DNA from: Lepidurus packardi
Taxonomy: Eukaryota; Arthropoda; Branchiopoda; Notostraca; Triopsidae
NCBI GenBank assembly: GCA_023053545.1
Contig: JAKZAN010000004.1
Coordinates: forward strand, 5,146,001-5,210,000
DNA length: 64,000 nucleotides
Direction of reading: 5' to 3'
Shown here: piece by piece, positions 8,442 through 58,973 of the stretch
How the letters are laid out: every line of letters starts with the position of its first letter
Numbering within the stretch: position 1 is the first letter of the stretch
The notes under the pieces: generated by a model
The model's database searches: none
What the model was told of the DNA's origin: nothing
Seen by the model: only the letters and a program-made list of their open reading frames with translations
Made by a program: the position numbers and the translations under genes

Positions 8442-11400
8442 TCAGCACCACGATTCCGAATTGGGATTCGCGTATCCATCCTCGTCACTTTCATCACTGG
8501 AATGTTCTCCATACATATCAGCCAACTTCTTAAACCGGGGTCCAAATTCCGATAGATATTCGAAGTTCATGTCACCATCGTCAGTTCCTGTAAACCCAAG
8601 TCACAATTATGATACTATCTACTACAAATTGCTTAACAAAGTTTCATACCTGAAGCTAAGGAAGAAAGTGAAATCTGGGAATTGCCTTCTCCTTCGTAGG
8701 CATAATGTCGCATATCATCGTAAGGTAAGCCGTCTGGATCGTGGTCCACCCTATCTTTATTATCATCCAAGAATGCGCTAATGTTGGCTTCGCCAGACCC
8801 AGGCGCTTTCTTTTGCTTAACTTCGTCCAATTTGCCGTTCCGCCCAATCAAAGGTTTGCCGTCTGGAGCCATTCGCAACAAGGACAGATCATAGCCAGTC
8901 ATGTCACCTTCGCCACCTCCTTCGTCCGAATAATTGATAATATTCTCCCGAATATCGTCGTTGAACTCCTTCAAAGTATCGTGGACTCGTCTTCTTCTCC
9001 AAACCACCACCATAATCACCAAAACTTGAGGGAAAAACGAATCATTTAGCAACTTTTTCGAGAACATTTGAAAGTCACAGGCTTACCAATAAGTATAAGT
9101 AGCAGTACAATTAAGGCGATGAGAAGTTCGTTGCCCATGGCATACCCTACAGATGGACCCACGATTACACCGTCGCAGGTATAACTCGTGTTTTGGGAGG
9201 CAGCCGGTCGGCTAACATCGTAAACTTTCCCGTTGAAGGTCACGTTACTGATGCAGCCCGCATAACCATCAGTAGTAGGTATTTGCGTCCAGCCCAATGT
9301 CATTCGAATGTTCCTTAGATTAGTAGGAGTGCCTCCGAGCTGCAAAGGTCCATTGACGTTTAAGAACTCATTGGGGCCGACAGGAACGCTTCGCACATGG
9401 CAGGCGTCTCCACTGTTGCAGTCGTCTATACTCATAAAGAGTTCCTATGCAATTCAACAACAACAAAGAATTACAACTCCATTCGTATTGCCCATAACCT
9501 AAGCCGCGTTCGTTTTGTCCAAAGCTTAAGCCGACTTAAAAATCTACTCAAGACTTCGGGCTTATAAGCGTTCAAGATAGGTAGACTTCCATAGACTTCG
9601 GGCTTATAAGCATTTTCTTTAGCTACTCGACTTAAGACTTTGAAAGTTGACTTTTAGTTTCGGTCTCAAGTCAGGAAAGTCTGTAGCGAGTACTCTTGTG
9701 GCCAGACTTAAACTTAACCCCGTCCCTTGTTTATTTATCTCCTTTGTCGATATCGAACAATTCATACATTGCTTTTCTTTATTTTTTTTTACAAGCACCG
9801 CCCCATGGGTGGAGCAATTGAAAACTTGTGCTTATAAGCGTTCGTCTTGGACTCAAGACTTTCCAAGTCGACTTCTGTAAACTTTGAAAGTTTAGGCCAA
9901 AGCGAACGCTTATAAGCGTAAGTCAAGGAAGTCTGGCTAGTCTAACTTTAAGTCAAAGGTGCAAAACGAACGCGACTCTAATTCTGTAATACTTGTAGGA
10001 AAAAAAATTACCTTCGCATCCCAATGTACGTGAATAGAATGTTCTTTCTCATCCATAAGTAACTTCTTGTCGGTCATCAATTTTAAAACTTGGGTACCAG
10101 ACCCCAGATTAATATACGCTTGAGGTAATCCGTTTACAATTTCCAAGGCCAGGAAATCTGTCAGAAAAAGAAAACTGGTTTTAAGTTTCATGTTTTTGAC
10201 CCTTGATTCTATCGCGTCAAAATTACCGGTAACTTTGTTGTTGACCGGTACTGCAGAAGGTCCAGCATACAAAACTAGACCATCCGACGCTGCCGGTCTT
10301 AGCTTAAGTCTCAAGTTGCCTTCAGTGCAAGCCGCTAATGGTTCGTACAACGCCCAGCTCTTTCCTGAGAAGGCCACATCTAAGCCTTGGCAACGGGGCC
10401 CATCAAACCCTTCCAAGCAATTGCATTTAGGGCCCGTGGCCGCAGAAACGCACGTTCCACCATTCATGCAAAAGGTTGGATCCCCGCACGAGGAAGCAAC
10501 ACTATCGGAGTCAGCCAAGCAGACGCATTGAGCTTTGGCACGCGCGTCCACACCCACGAAGGAAGATGTGTTGGTGAAAATCATGTACGGTTTATCCACG
10601 ATTTCCAAATCGTTTGAACAACTACCATCGCAGGCCATGTGCTCATACAAGCATTCGTCCACTCCAATCATTTCAATCCTCGCGCCCATCAATTTGCCCA
10701 ACTTAAAGAGAAAATGTCATTTTAAACTACTCCTCATAAAAAAAGGATATGAAACCATTACTTCTTCAGCATTTTCGGCCATTTTGGTGTTAATTTTCTC
10801 GGGCGCGTAATAAGGCGATCCATGAGCCGAGTAACGAACGTCAATAAAACTTTCATTGCCCATTTTCTTAGGCACAACCGTAAACAAATCAACGTTCTCT
10901 TCCGGAATTCCAAAGATGCTGGCCACTTTGCTTCTCAACAAATCTTTCTTGCTAACCTGCAAAACAGTTAGGCGTTTATGAGTAACAAACAAGCATAACG
11001 CTCTACGAAATCTAGCCAACATACCCCATTTATAGGCGTTAAAAACTGTTCTTGGGTGATCCCTGCCAGTCGAATGGACCCCGATTTGCGGACAGCTTCT
11101 TCGGGTATTTCCTTGACTGTCACGGTGACTGTTCCTATGGCATCTTCATTCCGCACGCGGTCATGGACAGCCACTCTCAATGTGTAAATGCCTTCTGGGG
11201 TACCGGCTCGAATCGTAATATTGCCTTGGGGCGAAACCGAAAAGTATGGGCTGCGAGGTTCCATGAGACTGAAGTCTTTGTCCGGCAAATCCCAGTCATC
11301 CAAATCGCTGACGTACACCCGCCCAATAACCAGCTCCGGCAGCAGGCCTTTGTAGTTGAAGACCGAAATGGAACTCGCGCCATCAGACATAGGGTTATCG

Positions 11401-32704: not shown

Positions 32705-32980
32705 GATCCTTTATAAGCAGAAAAGCAAAACGAATGCCTAATTGCCCCGGTCCAAGCCACAACACACAAATTGCCGATCGCGGAAACTGAATTGTGCTCA
32801 ATCTTACGCATAGATGGCGAAAGAATGCATCTCATGCGACGCGGGTCGCGTTGCAGATTAGAAACGTATTGTTACCGCGTTTTCCCCTTGGTTTTAGTAC
32901 CGCCTATCCGTCGATTCACTGTTTACCTTTTCAAAGAGTTTTGTTAATTAATTTTGTTTGCATTGAACGTTGAAGTGAAA
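32705..32980. promoter_or_regulatory. Divergent promoter region THOC1/PSMG4
   Basis: The two start codons are 276 bp apart and point away from each other, so both promoters must lie here or inside 5' leaders. No TATA box is evident. There is a GC-richer patch at about 32820-32890. The assignment rests on gene layout, not on a recognised binding site. Confidence 0.6.
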
Positions 32981-33367
32981 ATGAGTACAGTGTCAATAGA
33001 CTTTGCGCCGAGCTCGATAAAAATTCATCAATTCTTCAGTAATATCATGAACATGGACATAGTTTTTCAAATGTATCCATTGGAAGGCAGTTTATTTATA
33101 TGGATTGGTACAGTTTCTGAAGCATCGTTCAAAGATCTATCTGTTGCCATGATTACGCCTTACGAAAAACAACCGTTGAGCATCAAGCTTTTGGGAGACC
33201 CGGTCGCCTCTGATGAAACGTCCACCATGATGGCTCTTCGACTTGCTAAACGATTGAAAAAGCAAGTTTTTGCCAGCTACAATATCCCTGGTGATCCCGT
33301 TCAAATACTTCCTCTGGTCGAACAAAGATTAGCTGAAGAGGTCCATGTAAGACCAGACCTTTTCTGA
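32981..33367 (+). CDS. PSMG4: Proteasome assembly chaperone 4 (PSMG4)
   Basis: Small chaperone that, with PSMG3, helps assemble the 20S alpha ring (family knowledge). Single exon, 128 codons plus TGA, close to the usual 120-125. Seen: SLFIWIG, LSVAMITPYEKQPLSIKLLGD, ALRLAKRLKKQVFASYNIP and VEQRLAEE, the order and spacing found in PSMG4. The ATG at 32981 was chosen because it starts just before the conserved block; an in-frame ATG-free extension upstream adds MFALNVEVK-like residues only if a non-AUG start is used. An ATTAAA begins five bases after the stop. It is head to head with THOC1. Confidence 0.93.
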   Translation: MSTVSIDFAPSSIKIHQFFSNIMNMDIVFQMYPLEGSLFIWIGTVSEASFKDLSVAMITPYEKQPLSIKLLGDPVASDETSTMMALRLAKRLKKQVFASYNIPGDPVQILPLVEQRLAEEVHVRPDLF

Positions 33368-34913: not shown

Positions 34914-37900
34914 ATGCTGCCCACCAATGTGGTTTCCTTCGTCAAAAAGGTAAGGGATAACGATATGTTCCTAGGTTTTTCTACGTGTCAGAACTTCAGA
35001 ACTTGAATTTGTAGTGTCTGACGTCAGAGAAAGTTTTGGGTTCTTGTGTATATATTACAGGCATAAATGAGTCTCTTGCTTGAGCTGAAGCTTCATTAAT
35101 GACACGCCGGATCTTGTGGTCTTGATTACCGCGAGTGTGAACATGTCTTAAGACACAACGCCACCCTATCAATCAGGGTTGTACCTAAGCCTAAAAAAAA
35201 GAACTTAAATGAAGTCCAAGCCCATTTCGTTCCGTTAAGGCAAATCAAGTTCCAAGCCCTAAGCCTCGCTCATCTGAAAATTCAAGCTCAAATCAAAATC
35301 CAAGCCCTGAACAAAAGAACTTAAATCATGCAGAAAGCCTTCTGGTTGGATTTTAAAGTTCTACGTTAAGCCCATTCCTTTATTTTAGCGCATAACGTAC
35401 AAACGTCTCTGTACAATTACTGCATATACATTGTGTTGCATCTTAGGAACATAAGTTTCTCAAACACGTCAGGGGTCATTTTAGATCGGTCGGGCCTTAA
35501 AATTTTCCCTCCGTAGCTGAAAATTCTCTCAACCGGAGCTGAGGTTGCTGGTGTATGTAAAAACTGCGCAGCTACTTTGGCTAGATGGGGGAATCTGATC
35601 GAATTCGTCTTCCAATACTCATACACATCAGTCATTTTTGGGACGCAGGTTTCAGCCATATAAGTATCTAATTCACATGAGACAGACTTCGGTTGCTCCT
35701 GTTCCTGGGGTGCCTCAAATAGCAGACTATCTAAGCTGCAACGGGAATTTTCTAAACGGGCGCGCTTTGACGGGGGGGCGGAGGGACATTGTTGAACACA
35801 TTGAATCTCGTCAGTTTCACAAACTTTGAGTTTGGCAGTTATAGACCTACGCACATCGCACGCTTCTTCTAGGTTCAAGCACCAGCTTCCTAATTTGAAT
35901 CTGGGATCCAGAGCTGTTGACATTTTAAACGAGTCAAGGTTTTCATAGCGGGACATTCGACAGTCAATGGAAGACTTCAGGGTATTTAAAATTACATTAC
36001 AGTGGTATGGTTCAAACGCTGCTAAATAACGCCTTATGGCTCTTACAAACGGGATAGCACAGCTGATTGTTGGGTTTTTCTCGGTCTGAATAAGTTCTGT
36101 GACATCTTCAAAAATTTTAAACAACTCGATAAATTCACAAAGAAAACTACGATCATCGGAAGTTATTCTGCTATTTGGGATGCACCTATCCAGGTCCTTC
36201 GCACTGATCTTTACTACGGATCTGATGGCTTTCAACTGAGAATTCCAGCGAGTCTGGTTAAAAGAAACCGGTATTATTTTTAACGCATGCAGAGCTTCGC
36301 TTGCAGACAATGATTGTTTGCTTCGCCTAATGACATTCGAGACTTTCTGAAATACAGCTTGAAATTCATCACATCCCTTTAACCCATCTCGCACTACTAG
36401 TTGTAATGAGTGTGCAAAACATCTAACGTGAAAGACGTCTGAAGGAAGCTCTGTTTCTAAATCAGAAGCTAAGCTCTCTTGGTTAACTAACGTGGGTTCG
36501 CTGTCTTCTCCTTCACTATCAGAAAACTCTTCTGAGTCCACACTAATTTCATTGATGTCTAAAAGTGGTAGCTCCACTGTAAAAGCCTTCACCATATTGG
36601 TTGCGTTATCGGTCACGATGTAACTAATATCTCCGAAAACTAAATCAAAAGAATTCAAAATGCTTTGTAGTTCGGAGACTATGTTAGTAGCTGTGTGCCG
36701 CTCGGCAAAATGTTTGCAAGTTAAAGTAAAACTATTCAAAGACCAGTCTTTCAAGAAATGACCAGTGACCCCTAAGTAGCCCTGCATGGAACGACTTGTC
36801 CATAAGTCCAAAGTTAGACTGACGGGGGAGGACCGCGATTTCAAATTTTCTTTTATCTTCGTGGTAGCTAGGCTGACATAATGAGGTACAATGGTACCTG
36901 TCAATGATCTACGGGTTGGTAGCTCATATTTGGGGTCAAGAGAGAAAAACAATTTCCTAAAAACTTCATCGTCTACTATGCTAAGGGGAAGCATTTTGGA
37001 GGTGAGCAGGGTTACTACTTGCATCGTCAGAGATTTCGCGCGAGTGCTAGACGAAGGATAGCAAGAAGAGCTACTTCCGCTCTGCGATGGTATAAAATGA
37101 ACGGAAATGTCTTGGGCCAGAATGCCGATTGAAGCTGCGGATTGGTCTTTTTCTGTCAAAAACTTGCCATGTTGGACTGGGTGCTTACGCTGTAAAGGAA
37201 AATAGTTGCAGGATATTAGCGAAAAACACTTAAAATATTTTTCATGACATAAGCTTATATGCTTATAATAATTACCTTAAGATGTCGAATTAAATTTGAA
37301 GTTGCTCGGCTTGACGCGGAGTAAACTTTACAACAAGTTTTGCACGTAACTTTAAATGAGGTATCTGTTAACTGGTAACCCTTTACTAGGGAAAAGAATG
37401 AATAAATGTTGGACCCCTCCATACTTTTCAGCGATTAGGAGTCGACTGTTGGTTAGTCTTAAAAAAATTTCCGTTTCCCGTTTCATAGAAAGGCGATTGC
37501 TGAGAAATTGCGATTGTGATTGTGATTGGTGAAAGGCGTTTGCTGAGCTCACCTTTACCCCAATAGTTCAGAAAATGAACTTTCATATCCGCCTCGTATA
37601 AGTAAGATGCTTTCTACTTAAGCCCTTTCCAAATCACTGTCATACGGTTGCCTTTAAGTTCAAGACCAAGGTCAACTCACTTCAAAATGAGCTTGTGAAA
37701 ATTTCTCAAGCCTTAGCATGTTATAAAAACAGTCTTAAATCCGATTTAAATCCGGCTTAAGTTCAAATCCGTACAACCCTGCTATCAATACAATAGAGAC
37801 AAAGGAAAGGAGTGATTATATTTAGAACGCGGGGGAGGAAGGAAATGGCGTAGATGACGTTCATTGAACACATTATACATAATTGTTATTCCATTGTTTT

Positions 37901-40900
37901 GGAAGTTATAAAAGATATAAACCTACTCCAGATCTTTTCTTGTTTTGCGAGAAAGATGCTCAAAGCTTTAAAGATATCACTGGTACCGGTAAAACGTTTG
38001 AGATGGATTCAGCCCAAAGTTTTCGGAAACTTCACCAGTTTATTCGTGTGGGTGTTAATAATGTTGTTCGATTTGTTCTTTTGTGTATAACGCAACTGAA
38101 ATTGGTTATGAAGAAATTTCCTTTTTGAGCTGTCTTCGTATACAGTATTTTTGAAAGGATGGAAAAGAATGTTAGGCCGTTTTGAAGGTTAAGTGTAGGG
38201 CAAATGTGTTAGACGTGTCGAGGTTTTCCAGTTATAGGGAATCAGGAACAAGCGGAAACCTCCCTTCCCCTTCACATTGTGGATTTTGGCGAGGAAAGCA
38301 TCGTGATTATGCAAATTGGATGGCAAAAGGTTGGATAAATTTAGTGCTCCCTCACATCAGACTAGCTGGTGTCTTTTGTATCCGATTCTATGATGCCAGG
38401 ACAGGAAATATTCATTTGGGGTACTAAAGTTGTGCATCAAGGGACCCGGATATTTTGCTCGCTGATTAGAAGAGATGTCTTTAGAAGCAATTTGGTGCGT
38501 TAGGTGGCTTATTTTGCTTTTAGCTCGGGGCTAAATTATAGCTCTGCATGGCTTGGTCGCGGGGTGTGGCTCGAGGAAATGTGTGCAGATGGCGAAGATA
38601 ATTTCGTCCGCTACTACAATAGCGGCACCTGTAGCTCGCTATTTTCCATCTCAATCTCGGAATATGGAAGCCCGAAGGGTATTGAAAGTTGTCCGCAGCT
38701 CGCTTGTAAGTTCGTGCACCCGATTAGTCGGTTAAAAGTTGTATGCGTGTAACCTCATGTATAACTTTATAAATGAACACCGTAACAGTGTTACTTCGTA
38801 CACCAACGAAAGGAGTTACGAACCCCTTGGTATACTGTTGAATCGAACAAGCGCTGTTTATGGGCTTTATTAACTTCATCAATGTTTTTATTTAACTTGT
38901 TTTAGTAGGGCTTGATTACATTCATGTATGCTTATTATACTTCATAGCACAAGGGACCACGGAGGAATTAAGGGATTAGAACACAAAACTGTATATAGTG
39001 GAAGATTGAATTGCAGTGCTGGCAACATCACGTTGTAACTCTTTTTGCTTTGATTAACAGATGGTGGCCCCAAGTGAAGCTGATACGGGGTCTGGTAAAG
39101 CGACAGCTCGATTATCGAAATTGAAACAAACTTTGACGTCTGGTCTGCAGCAAGCTCAAGAGTCAGGTAAAAGCTTGACACACTTTTCGTTCTATTTGTT
39201 TCCGACAAGCTTCTAGACAGAGAGAGTGATGCTTTATTAGCCTGGCTGTCAGGCAAAACAGATCAGGTCGTTTGTTGTAATATTGGGGAGGAGATCTAAC
39301 AGCGTTGTTTTGTTGGGGTTTAAAAACTTGGATTAAAGGGATATTTGATATGTCTTCCTTTCCGCGCTTAGTCAATAAGTTGTCACCCACGCGGCCGTTC
39401 AACGCCAAATTAGATCTGTCATCCACTCATCAAGCCACAGAAACCGAGTTACATCGATTATTGGGGAAACCCAGTGCGCCACTGAGTTTGCCCAACTTGC
39501 AGCAACAGGGCACCGAGACTCCAGTGGCTCTTACTTCATCCCACATTCCGTGAGTACACTTTTATTTTTACATTCCTTTTTTGTCCATCATCCTTCATCA
39601 GCTTCTTAAGTCTGGGACTACTGGCAAGTAGTCTTGAAAAAGTAAGCTTGTGGAAAGTAAGGGAACTTGGAGGTTTGCGTGCACGCTAGCCATTAAACAA
39701 CCTCTAAAGAAGGGAGTTTTGACAGAGGTTTATTCTAACACCACTTCTAAAATATAAAAAGAGCCAGTGTAGCTATTCTTTGTGTAAGACTTTAAGTGGC
39801 CGGACGGTGTATTATCGAAGCCAGTCTCATTAGTTTGAAGTATAGCAGTCCAGGGGTTTCGTTTGCATGTTTAACTAAGGTGGACCCTGGCTTGTCAAGT
39901 TTGGTTTAAAAAAAAAAAAAGTTTACATCATAGCTTGCATAGCTTGCTTGTCACTTAAAAATCACGCACGCGTCTCCCTCGGGGATGTATTATTCATTTA
40001 TAGAAACCAGCCACTGAGCGAGTTAACACCAAACCAGAGTAACTGGACGACTTTCGGTTTACGACCAACATTCACTCGGTTACAATTCATTATTGCGTAA
40101 TTTTGCTATGGATGAAGCCAGACCGAACTAAGAGCGTTAGCAGGAGTTGTATCATTGAGTTTAGGCGTGGTATATCGACCTATGTTTGTCTTTATTTCGT
40201 TTTTTAAAAGAAGACGAAGTTTTCTTTCTTATTTTTGTTTCCGCCATGCACTTTGTTCTCGCAAAGAAATGGAAAAGCAGAGTTTGACCAGTAAACCAAC
40301 TTGAAGATAAGAAAGTTTCCTGAGAAGAAGGTTTTAAACTTTATAGTATGGGTTCCTGTTAATTACTGCTGTTTGGCAACCTTTTCCAGGTCGTCAGTCA
40401 GAAAAGCATCAGGACCACCTGATCGAGCCACTTCGTGTCGTGTTTGCGTTCGAAGCCTTTCTTCCGGAGATGTCTATCACCGTCTCTGCACACAGTGTGG
40501 ACTAAAAGTGTGTGACGATTGTGCTTCTTACTCCTTAGCGTCGCAAGACGAGAAAGAACAGGTAAGCGAACTTTTACCGAAAACATTTTTTTTTCGGTGC
40601 GAGAGAAATTTAGATCTATTGATTTTCTACCACCCCCTTTCTGGTGTAAGAGAACATTTGCCTCCTCGTAGTACTGTACACTGCACTCCCGGGTCTAGGA
40701 GCAGAGGCTTGAAAAATTGCCTGCAGCTTTTATGGACCACTCTTGTCTTGCCTACCTGTAGTGTAAAAACCCTCCAAAATGCAACACCTCATTGTGTATT
40801 TTTCTTTTTCCTTTTACCTGAAAGTAAGCGCTTGATAAAATGTCTTTGTAACCGCGCGAGAGCCAAAAAGCACAAGAAATTTATTTCCAGTACACAAAAG

Positions 40901-52900: not shown

Positions 52901-54089
52901 ACAGAAGAAGGTGATTTTTTCTTTTTTTAAATTTATATTTATGTGACAAATGGTTCTCATCTCGGCAATTTCTTTTCGTGCACTTTAGGACATAATGGGG
53001 TGGACCAATCAAACATTCATCTTAGGTAAGTTTAAGCATTTCGTAGCAATGATATGGTGTTCCTAAACAATGGGATCAGAAGACTAATTTTGAAGCGTGT
53101 GCTATTTGATGCAGTAGTCCCATACACATTTTTATTACCAGACGTATTCCCGGTCCTGGTTCTCGTTTAGACGCAGTAAGTTTGGGTCTCGGACCAGCCC
53201 AAATTCCCCCATTGCACCTTGCAGGTTCGGTTATAATTCACATTCTCTTCTTTTTTACACATTCTTCCTTTCCGAATCCTTGGAACGTCTGCGGTACTTT
53301 ATCCTATACACCATAATGGCTTTCTTTCGCACAGTTAATGTCTTTTTTAGCACTGTAATTTTCTCCTCGTGGCTTTTTGTTCTCTACCGTGGTACAAATC
53401 GCCTTTTGAAAGCAAAATTTTTTGCTGTTTTTCAATTCTCTGCTCCGTCTCTATTCCGTTTATAACTTTCAGGATTCGATACTTGACGGTGTCGAATGTA
53501 CTTGTTATCGCTTTAGAAGGTACGGGAATGAAAAGCGTTTTTTCTTTTGTTTTTTTAAACAACAGTTGTCGCCGGACAGTTGAAACTGGGGATAATCATG
53601 ACCAAAGGCCAGATGGAAGTGGAAGTCATTGGCGCGAGAAGTTTACCGAAAGGGCCCGGCAACATGCCGCCAGGTAAAAGGTAAACTGTAACTTCCTAGC
53701 TCGATAGTAATGTGTCGTTTGCTATTGGTTTTTCAGACACGTACGTCAAGTTGTATATCCGTGACGAGGATCTATTGGTAGCAAAACGCAAAACGCGCAT
53801 AATGCGACAGACAACTTCTCCGCTGTTTCATCAAACATTTTGTTTCGCTGCAAGGGACCTCACTCGGCGTAGTCTCCTTGTCTGCCTTATGGATTGTTCG
53901 AGTCGACAGTTAAATAACGGGCGAAACTCCAAGTTGGGAGTCATGTCAGCTCGTACTTTAGGTTTGGTAGAGCTATCCGTGAATCGTTTACCACTTTCAG
54001 CCCTCAATATTGCTTGGTACCCTATATTTACCATCGGAGACGATTACCGATTATTCATTTCCGATGACGAGTCCTTAAATTCAGATTAA
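34914..54089 (+). CDS. Presynaptic active-zone scaffold, Fife/RIM class (zinc finger, PDZ, C2A, C2B)
   Basis: Family members tether vesicles and calcium channels at release sites. Exons: 34914-34949 (tentative), 39061-39166, 39339-39549, 40390-40561, 43294-44023, 44149-44391, 44595-44939, 45923-46148, 46463-46653, 46946-47044, 48364-48488, 49219-49325, 49857-49954, 50314-50378, 50490-50656, 50761-50924, 52137-52301, 52387-52701, 52779-52910, 52989-53025, 53115-53224, 53566-53673 and 53737-54089. Total 4,305 nt, 1,434 codons plus TAA; every phase closes. Zinc finger (about residues 132-185) has four CxxC pairs; Ser/Arg-rich linker; PDZ (787-864, GFGLSVIGGK); C2A (about 925-1080); C2B (1282-1420, GQMEVEVIGARSLPKGPG, YVKLYI). 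The finger lacks the RIM-typical SGAWF and the PDZ end (TFEDVQAILERTNDVVDIEVEV) looks more Fife-like, so Fife is my first choice and RIM/unc-10 the alternative. Both C2 domains lack an obvious full set of calcium-binding aspartates. One intron (44024-44148) appears to be GC-AG. Confidence 0.87.
35166..37789. mobile_element. Complete hAT DNA transposon with target-site duplication
   Basis: The element proper is 35174-37781 (2,608 bp). It begins CAGGGTTGTAC and ends GTACAACCCTG, an 11-bp perfect terminal inverted repeat. It is flanked on both sides by CTATCAAT (35166-35173 and 37782-37789), a perfect 8-bp duplication as expected of hAT insertion. It encodes one open transposase on the minus strand. 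It lies between the first two Fife/RIM exons, antisense to the host gene. Perfect duplication and open frame suggest a recent insertion. Confidence 0.96.
35417..37422 (-). CDS. hAT transposase with BED zinc finger
   Basis: Cut-and-paste transposase. Two exons, 37276-37422 and 35417-37189, joined in phase 0 across an 86-bp intron (AAG|GTAATT...TTACAG), giving 639 codons plus TAA with no internal stop. The BED finger is split by the intron: C27, C30, H47 and H52 with the second His in RKHP. The RNase-H-like catalytic core shows LTLDLWTS (first Asp), YIVTDNATNM (second Asp), the insertion-domain CFAHSLQL and QTRWNS, and the C-terminal dimerisation block ending TSAPVERIFSYGG, which contains the expected catalytic Glu. 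An acidic stretch (about residues 255-285) precedes CFAHSLQL. A domesticated ZBED-like host gene is unlikely because the frame sits exactly inside intact transposon ends. Confidence 0.95.
41844..41859. repeat. G16 homopolymer
   Basis: Sixteen G in a row followed by TTGAGGGCGGCGGGGCGGG, within a 2.7-kb Fife/RIM intron. The G-rich strand is the sense strand. Several GGG runs make a G-quadruplex possible. Length may be unreliable in the assembly. Confidence 0.8.
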
Positions 54090-55165: not shown

Positions 55166-55295
55166 GTAAGTTAATTTTACTCTGGTTAATAAAGTTAATT
55201 TTAAGGTTTGTAATTACACACAAAACACCTATTGACCCATAAATATTAATTTAACTTTATGTGTGGTTAGGGTGCGGTGTTTCAAACGTATGATC

Positions 55296-55549
55296 CACAA
55301 TATACAAGTTTACCTTCGTATATGTAAACCTGTATATATTGTGGTTTCTTTTTGTAGATATTTTATTACGTTCAAAACGGATGGTTTTGTTGAATTTAGG
55401 CTGGGCGAGTCCAAGCAAGATGCACAATATACAAGTTTACCTTCGTATATGTAAACCTGTATATATTGTGGTTTCTTTTTGTAGATATTTTATTACGTTC
55501 AAAACGGATGGTTTTGTTGAATTTAGGCTGGGCGAGTCCAAGCAAGATG
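55296..55549. repeat. Exact tandem duplication, 127-bp unit x2
   Basis: Copy 1 is 55296-55422 and copy 2 is 55423-55549, and I see no difference between them. Each unit starts with an imperfect hairpin (CACAATATAC... pairing with ...GTATATATTGTG) followed by TTTCTTTTTGTAG, which resembles a splice acceptor. Overlapping frames repeat accordingly but match no family I know. Confidence 0.9.
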
Positions 55550-56955
55550 CCGCTGGTATTATTCTTTGTCATGGTTGCCTGCTCCAGTTCGCATTTATTT
55601 TTCTTAGGAGAGACAGCCTTAGGAATGTTTGCCTGTTATGCAAATGAAGCTCAGTGAAATCGTTGCGTACCACGTGGTAGAGTTATTGATTCAGGTAAGA
55701 TCGTTCAAAATGTGCTTAATAGTTTAGTAGAATATAATAGATCCGTAATAATAAAAGGACTGTAGCAGGAGATTCACCTTACGTCGCGCTTATTACATAA
55801 TTATATAATATGGCTTAAAAAATTGAATCTGTGTGACTAGCCAATGATCAGAGATTTCTTGATATGCTACTGGCTCCTGACATGGTTAGATACAGGTCGT
55901 TCTTCTTTCGAATTGTTCTTGTGTCGACGGTCAATATTGCACCACAGTGACGATTATAGTTATTGGGTTGTGCAGTTTTAACGCTGGAAGAACTTCCTTA
56001 ACTGCACCGATCTCTTGGTAATATACAATCTATCATATGTTTAAATGATTTCAGACCTAACGTATTTACCTTAGGTGTTGTTTAACGTTAGTTGCTTTCT
56101 AGTTTGGGTATACAGAAAGAGAAGGCTATATGGAAAGACCCTAACGAATATCCCTTGCTGCGTTCACGAACCAAATGGATCTTTTGGCTATTAATGTGGT
56201 GGTTTTCTGCAGTTTTATGTAAATAGTTTCAAACCAGTCTTCCGTGAACTATTTAAGAAATTGAACATGGATTTTTAAATTTTGTGTTTACATTTCAATG
56301 ATTAACCCTTCCAACTGCGACTGTTGTTGTAAACGTTTGTCCCTCCCAAACATACACTAGCACATGCACTGACTTTTCCAAATCTGTTGGAATTGTTATT
56401 CTGTGTCTTTGCTTAGCTCCAAAAATGTGATTTTAAAATTATGCAAATGAGACTTTTTTTAGACATCGGAATCTCTTGTTTGCTTAGTTGTTGTACCCAA
56501 ACGCTCCCCGTAAAAATTGTGGTTTCCAAAATTGTACTTTTTATTGTACGATTTCTAATTCTTGAAATAAAAGTGAAAGTTTGGGAAATTTTTGCATGAT
56601 TTTTCATAAAAGCCGCGAAAACGGGTGTGACCTCCACAAAAAGGACGAATCGTATTTTTGGATAGGACAAAAATGGGGCGTGGTTTCTTTTCGATCTGTA
56701 AAAGCATTTTCTGGGCTTTTTTCCATAAGGATCCCTGCACGATCAAGGGGGTCCCCTTCAAAAATCATCAAAAATTGAGAGCCTCGCCCCTTTCCCTGTT
56801 GCCAACTCCCCTGCTCGGCTTCCTATCCCGGATATTCAAGCTCGTGATGCCAAAGCATCACAATTTCGAATAGGGGTACAGGAAGCTTGTCGGGAAGGCA
56901 TAAGGTACAGAGCAAGGAAGCCATCTAATATTTTGTTTTTTTGACGAAATAAAAG

Positions 56956-58260: not shown

Positions 58261-58973
58261 AACGCTACAGGACGTAGATACAAGGACTTCTCGACATAAG
58301 GACTACGGACCCCGACACAAGAGCCCGTTCGTTGACGAAAGTTTAAGCCGACTTAAAAGTCTACCCAAGACTTTGCTCTTATAAGCGTTTTCTCTAGCTT
58401 GTTGACTTTTAGTTCTGGTCTGAAGTCAGGCAAGTCTATAGTGCAGCAGTTCTCAAACTGTGCTCCACGGTAGGCTTGCAGGGGCACCGAACGATTCCTA
58501 TAATTGCATAGATGCAGCAATTATATAGGCCAATGTTCTAAGGGGCGCCGCGCGAGCTGCGAATATGTTCCAAGAAGTGCTGCGACGAATTGGGGGATAC
58601 TGTTAGTGCGCCGCGAACGAAAAAGTTTGAGAACACCTGCTATAGCGAGTACTCTTGTGCCCAGACTTAAACTTAACCCCGCCCCTTGTTTATTTATCTC
58701 CTTTGCCGATCTCGAACAATTCATGTATTGCTTTTGTTTACTTTCTACAAGCACCGCCACATGGGTGGAGCAATTGTATATTTATGCTTATAAGCGTTCG
58801 TTTTGGATTCAATATTTTCCAAGTCGACATCCGCAAACTTTCAAAGTTTAGGCTAAAACGAACGCTTATAAGCGTAAGTAAAGGAAGTTTGGCTAGTCTA
58901 AGTCGAAGGTGCAAAACGAACGCGGCTCTTGTGTCGGGGTCTATAGTCGTTGTGTCGCGTTGACAACGCTACA
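58261..58973. mobile_element. Foldback-like element (copy 3) with 9-bp flanking repeat and nested insertion
   Basis: The element is 58270-58964, bracketed by AACGCTACA at 58261-58269 and 58965-58973, a probable 9-bp target duplication. Its outer ends carry the GACACAAGG sub-repeats, inverted relative to each other, that also mark 23321-23777. Its core (about 58320-58927) is the same family as 9503-9976. It has no transposase frame. The 9-bp duplication would suit a Mutator-like origin, but this is inference; hAT with one chance extra base is possible. Confidence 0.8.
58436..58647. mobile_element. Nested 196-bp hAT-type MITE
   Basis: The insert is 58444-58639. Its ends, CAGCAGTTCTCAAACT and the complement of CAGGTGTTCTCAAACT, are 14/16 identical and have the TTCTCAAACT signature of many hAT elements. 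The flanks CTATAGTG (58436-58443) and CTATAGCG (58640-58647) are an 8-bp duplication with one mismatch. The related repeat at 9503-9976 has CTGTAGCGAGTACTC uninterrupted at the matching place, the empty site. Confidence 0.93.

Follow-up and report, generated by a model that had tools for sequence, protein, structure and literature searches.

A very probably autonomous and recently amplified hAT transposon family in thirteen near-identical copies

The window, that is, the whole 64,000-bp stretch of DNA analysed here (C3:5146001-5210000 of assembly G000, which holds 108.6 Mb in 344 contigs), contains a complete hAT element of 2,608 bp at positions 35174-37781. We hold it to be very likely that this is an autonomous 2.6-kb hAT DNA transposon, the family of which was amplified very recently. 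It is an ordinary element in an unusually clean and young state, its family being new, recently active and of a type already known, and from the sequence we infer that it could still be active today.

Structure of the element and of its surroundings

The initial annotation had described perfect 11-bp terminal inverted repeats (TIRs), a perfect 8-bp target site duplication (TSD) and an open 639-residue BED-finger transposase with core motifs. We recovered the ends to the base, the TIRs matching at 11/11 bp and the two 8-bp copies of the TSD matching perfectly, while Pfam and an alignment with the Hermes transposase confirmed the coding part. The features of the element and of the gene around it are as follows (window positions).

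34914-34949, plus strand: candidate first coding exon of the host gene, 36 bp, 12 codons, donor AAG|gtaagg (sequence reading)
35166-35173, unstranded: left TSD, CTATCAAT
35174-35184, plus strand: left TIR, CAGGGTTGTAC, 11 bp, on the 3' side of the transposase gene
35212-35373, plus strand: five AAG(T/C)CC subterminal repeats, proposed BED-finger sites (putative function)
37189-35417, minus strand: transposase exon 2, 590 codons and stop, with D177, D243, C306xxH309, R363W364, E603 and the hAT dimerisation region
37275-37190, minus strand: predicted transposase intron, 86 bp, GTAATT...TTTACAG (GT-AG), splitting the BED finger
37422-37276, minus strand: transposase exon 1, ATG at 37422, 49 codons, most of the BED zinc finger
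37771-37781, minus strand: right TIR, GTACAACCCTG, 11 bp, on the promoter side
37782-37789, unstranded: right TSD, CTATCAAT
39061-39166, plus strand: putative next host exon, after the acceptor ...aacag, starting ATG GTG GCC
53700-54089, plus strand: host stretch with a C2 domain in the C2B position (PF00168, E 7.1e-10), RIM/synaptotagmin-like

The two exons join into an open frame of 639 residues plus stop on the minus strand. Pfam found in it a zf-BED domain (E 2.4e-10) and Dimer_Tnp_hAT (PF05699, E 1.6e-17, 63.5 bits against a cut-off of 21.4), and the best PDB match by sequence was the Hermes transposase (E 2.2e-20). We assumed the offset between the PDB chain and the Hermes residue numbering, as well as the names of the RW and CxxH motifs. 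With this numbering, the alignment pairs D177, D243 and E603 with Hermes D180, D248 and E572, which are all three catalytic residues. In Hermes, altering these residues affects or abolishes transposition, according to the available part of PMC2533014.

We also looked for repeated motifs close to the ends. AAG(T/C)CC occurs five times in the left 243 bp against 0.6 expected, a count reached by none of 300 shuffles, although motif and end lengths were picked after viewing word counts and the shuffle control is thus not independent. The right 359 bp contain one occurrence, reached in 106 of 300 shuffles, and the middle one more, so that enrichment is limited to the left end; plain AAGT is not enriched. 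The BED finger of Hermes reads AAGT with AT-rich DNA after it and bound isolated AAGC poorly, as given in the available text of PMC10368747. Considering this, and the lack of AAGT enrichment here, we put forward the reading of AAGCCC by the BED finger of the window transposase as a prediction.

The element had also been placed inside a synaptic gene. This is probable, the C2 domains downstream being RIM/Piccolo/Fife-like, and the intron position is likewise probable and depends on the candidate 36-bp exon. The domain in the C2B position matches synaptotagmins and RIM1, and a C2A-like exon pair downstream has RIM2 as best PDB match (E 2.6e-6). A zinc finger of the host gene resembles FYVE_2 and Piccolo fingers (under every Pfam cut-off, best PDB E 0.09), and a PDZ-like exon gave no Pfam match and only weak PDB ones (E 0.08). 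We take the order finger, PDZ, C2A and C2B to be the layout of RIM/Piccolo/Fife active-zone scaffolds, and the host gene looks like a member of this type. Since its first confident coding exon, at 39061, directly follows an acceptor, an exon must lie upstream, and the candidate at 34914-34949 has a strong donor and the same phase as the exon at 39061. The element therefore probably lies, antisense, in intron 1, where it presumably leaves the host gene unaffected.

Other features of the window and of the assembly were noticed on the way. A Proteasome assembly chaperone 4 gene (PAC4, E 2.9e-21) lies just upstream of the host gene, at window positions 32948-33367. The window also holds two copies, 87% alike, of a dispersed repeat (9681-9979 and 58640-58929) and a 132-bp tandem duplication of 99% identity (55292-55423 and 55419-55550). 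TTAGG telomere repeats reach the end of contig C3, and TTAGGC repeats are absent. Many COX1-like nuclear mitochondrial fragments with TGA codons are found on C1-C6, with one stop left when read in the invertebrate mitochondrial code, and COX1 frames free of in-frame stops, as in bacteria, are found on C52, C214 and C43, which are possible symbiont or contaminant contigs. The telomere motif and the mitochondrial code agree with an arthropod source, so that this small genome is probably that of an arthropod.

Copies of the family and their age

Using the element as a query against the genome, we obtained 23 matches, of which 16 correspond to thirteen copies of the window family and seven to a second family. 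The thirteen copies (L009-L021, L009 being the window copy) are all full length, the count being a lower bound for the 108.6 Mb. Each one possesses both ends and a perfect 8-bp TSD, at 12 distinct sites; identical ends and 8/8 duplications in 13/13 copies at 12 different sites exclude that the element structure arose by chance.

Divergence among the copies is close to zero. Over their 2,608 bp, L010, L011 and L012 do not differ from the window copy at all, and one substitution against it was counted in each of L013, L014, L018, L019 and L020, two in L015 and three in L021. In total, 10 substitutions were counted in 33,904 bp, zero to three per copy and none common to two copies; one of those in L015 changes a base of the right TIR (position 2606). 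Seven substitutions are coding, 5 of them missense and 2 silent, a mix that shows no trace of selection for keeping the copies and would be expected if these are young and neutral. The whole frame is kept in 9/13 copies, namely seven without an insert (L009-L015) and, outside their inserts, L019 and L020. It is broken by an insertion in L021 and by 2-bp deletions in L016, L017 and L018, leaving 200, 200 and 535 residues. As probes of the genome, we also took 247 bp of one element end and 242 bp of the other, which could miss derivatives with very short ends. They matched the thirteen copies only (13/13 and 14/14 candidates scored), and internally deleted relatives of the common type were thus absent from the matches.

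At mutation rates of 2.8e-9 to 5e-9, the private substitutions, averaging 2.9e-4 per site (95% Poisson 1.4e-4 to 5.4e-4), give a mean insertion age of about 59,000-105,000 generations (95% about 28,000-194,000), a rough dating as it uses 10 substitutions and depends on assumed rates.

An empty-site paralogue was found in the same genome for 5 of the 12 insertion sites. The clearest is that of L017, which sits in a 7.4-kb tandem array where the element is missing from the adjoining units at C1:3658014 and C1:3675434; these have one GTCGGGAC each, and the 600 bp of joined flanks match at 99.83%. For the 11 other insertions we searched with joined flanks of 90+90 bp, scoring 40 of 501 candidates, and found matches across the joint in at least five places for L012, at least 11 for L014, at least 23 for L020 (one covering 166 of 180 bp) and at least one for L021; for L018 a single flank proved to be a repeat. 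In these 40 of 501 candidates there was none for L010, L011, L013, L015, L019 or the window copy, whose empty CTATCAAT site the initial annotation had proposed to look for in other individuals, and with so few candidates scored this absence is weak evidence.

Taken with the proposal of an intact, possibly active hAT element, these results are favourable. The search for near-identical copies that the initial annotation called for recovered the thirteen full-length copies with a TSD on each, and two findings that might have spoken against it, an absence of related copies or the presence of decayed ones only, did not turn up. The proposal is further backed by the empty sites and by a frameshifted copy for which a jump is the simplest origin, as described below. 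Present activity still belongs to what is inferred.

Nested elements, a passenger copy and a probable short hop

Three of the thirteen copies contain insertions of other complete elements, which are younger than the hAT copies they interrupt.

L019:1056-4623: 3,568 bp between TTAA tetranucleotides, in L019
In L020: another hAT, 3,757 bp, TSD GTTGGTTA
In L021: a LINE, 5,051 bp, with poly(A) and a 12-bp duplication

The insert of L019 encodes a protein of 944 residues in which a Mutator-like transposase is joined to a YqaJ nuclease domain, and it has at least one full copy in the genome, its relatives being only 65-70% alike (40 of 56 candidates scored). The hAT within L020 has at least six near-identical full copies (40 of 175 scored), and the LINE at least three near-full and at least six shorter ones at 99-100% (40 of 94 scored). 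Under uniform insertion, 3 events within 34 kb would imply some 9,600 later insertions across the genome; surviving insertions are therefore probably concentrated in tolerant DNA. Pairs of family insertions lie 34, 119, 474 and 859 kb apart, a clustering that may simply mark the places where the genome tolerates insertions.

The sharing of one TSD by L012 (C5) and L016 (C1) is explained by their position inside two copies of the same MULE-type transposon of about 11 kb (C5:10838296-10849248 and C1:3625677-3636681), 99.7-99.8% alike. These copies are bounded by different 9-bp duplications, TGGAAGTAG (9/9) for one and ACCTATAA followed by A or G (8/9) for the other. The common context with distinct duplications indicates that the hAT element was copied as cargo. 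The C5 copy has an open frame of 1,480 residues that is broken in the C1 copy, and a MULE transposase domain (E 6.2e-10) lies in an 871-residue part of the C1 frame. By eye, we also recognised C2H2 fingers and OTU-, SWIM- and PHD-like motifs in the 1,480-residue frame (L036/L037; L029/L030/L031 in the C1 copy), and the MULE site occupied by the hAT element is empty in at least five other places.

L016 and L017 are 34,154 bp apart, have different TSDs and share the same 2-bp frameshifting deletion, being otherwise identical, while L012 does not carry this deletion. The order of events would most simply be insertion of the hAT element, transposition of the MULE, deletion in L016 and a jump of the defective copy to give L017. 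As a frameshifted L016 would have given rise to L017, the transposase probably acted in trans, supplied by another copy. The shared deletion could also be recurrent, a product of gene conversion or an assembly error; it falls in a TTTT run. The array around L017 (C1:3653282-3676000, L032-L034) consists of 7.4-kb units 99.5-99.9% alike, with an LTR-retrotransposon RNase H-like piece seen by eye. Rfam searches of L030, L033 and L036 returned nothing.

Spread of the family and comparison with known systems

By the mechanism we propose, the two-exon antisense gene would be spliced and translated into the transposase, which would bind the element ends through its BED finger and cut with an RNase H-like DDE core, a chemistry transferred from Hermes. 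The excised element would then be inserted elsewhere, the 8-bp stagger of the joining reaction producing the 8-bp duplications, and copy number would rise whenever the sister chromatid or the homologue is used to restore the element at its donor site. One extra copy came from the ride inside the larger MULE transposon.

We asked which other histories could account for the same copies. A burst that was over some tens of thousands of generations ago, followed by piRNA or other silencing, with copies still too young to decay, has in our estimation a little under an even chance: the divergence of 2.9e-4 per site would correspond to roughly 30,000-190,000 generations at the assumed rates, and three copies are already split and three frameshifted. 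On the contrary, four copies including that of the window are identical and seven are uninterrupted with an open frame, so that nothing in the DNA prevents activity. We give very little credence to an origin of most copies by segmental or tandem duplication or as an assembly artefact, which would fit the 99.7-99.8% similarity of the L012 and L016 surroundings over about 11 kb and the location of L017 in a tandem array. The other 1-kb flanks of the copies do not match one another, except for a repeat fragment common to L018 and L020, there are empty sites, and the 12 different perfect TSDs refute such an origin for 12 of the 13 copies.

That the host has recruited the window copy, either as a gene or as a regulatory element of the synaptic gene, is highly improbable. 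Its open frame and its probable position in intron 1 of a RIM/Piccolo/Fife-like gene would agree with this, but it lies antisense, retains both ends and the TSD and shows no private sequence change, being identical to other mobile copies. A more ambitious reading seems to us unlikely. In it, the family would be mobile today and a recent arrival in the host lineage (perhaps through horizontal transfer), and it would spread in parallel through its transposase, which would also move frameshifted copies over short distances, and inside an active MULE that carries it; a sister family would have the same AAG(T/C)CC code, read by the BED finger. Fragments of older relatives in this genome (C1:3186470-3187283 and C2:937878, 59-65% protein identity) make a long-standing presence of this transposon lineage possible, and a recent horizontal arrival is not required. 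The search for relatives among viral contigs (2 pattern matches) and among prokaryotic genome contigs (17 pattern matches) confirmed none; a literature text search with the two TIR sequences gave no transposon title among the matches listed.

The reading we retain, an autonomous hAT element in a very recently amplified family, leaves knowledge of how hAT elements work unchanged and makes the family a good test case for transposon activity. The family is young and intact, its whole copy set is at hand, and every insertion can be ordered, several with empty sites. With seven uninterrupted open-frame copies and ends that suggest a testable BED-binding motif, it could supply a new transposon tool, and it offers a case of nesting among transposons young together.

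Membership in the hAT superfamily was confirmed by the 8-bp TSD, the CAG... TIRs, the C-terminal dimerisation region and the DDE, RW and CxxH residues. The Ac group has the TSD consensus nTnnnnAn. Among our 12 sites, T is at position 2 in 8, A at position 7 in 9 and both in 6; by strand, T2/A7 is found in 17 of 24 (P 3.5e-5 against an assumed 0.295). The Buster consensus, nnnTAnnn in the available part of PMC3517528, is seen as TA at positions 4-5 in only 4 of the 12 sites. The TSD pattern, which is a comparison of consensus sequences, thus leans toward Ac rather than Buster, and the Tip group is defined by placement with Tip100/BuT2, as far as the text available from PMC3942097 goes.

The second hAT family of the genome allows a closer comparison.

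L022-L028, on contigs C6, C16, C4, C3, C3, C6 and C1 of G000: copies of about 2.76 kb, TIR CAGGCTTGGGC

It shares 66-68% DNA and 61-64% protein identity with the window family over long stretches, and its frame opens at the same place after exon 1. Its copies are 99.1-99.9% identical, which would make it equally young; both ends and perfect 8-bp TSDs were found in 5 of the 7, and for the other two no left end is present within the sequence read. It differs by its TIR and by the enrichment of AAGTCC at both ends, with 8 and 9 motifs of this type against 0.4 and 0.6 expected, and 3 in the middle.

Local hopping is known for Tol2, the medaka hAT, for example over 153 kb in Xenopus, which can be set beside the 34 kb between L016 and L017. 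According to the part of PMC2848417 available, the Tol2 hops were forced by injected transposase, while ours is deduced from one shared deletion.

Finally, Hermes of Musca domestica (Ac group) is among the closest known systems. The two are distant in sequence, the local match (E 2e-20) being confined to the catalytic core. As described in the available text of PMC10368747, Hermes has a CCHC BED finger that binds AAGT well, whereas the finger of the window element is, by sequence reading, CxxC...HxxxxH, and its enriched repeat is AAGCCC, at one end. On the other hand, both have an alignable DDE core, the RW and CxxH motifs, a C-terminal dimerisation region and an N-terminal BED finger, and they also have in common, as far as that text goes (PMC10368747), 8-bp TSDs and AAG-type subterminal repeats.
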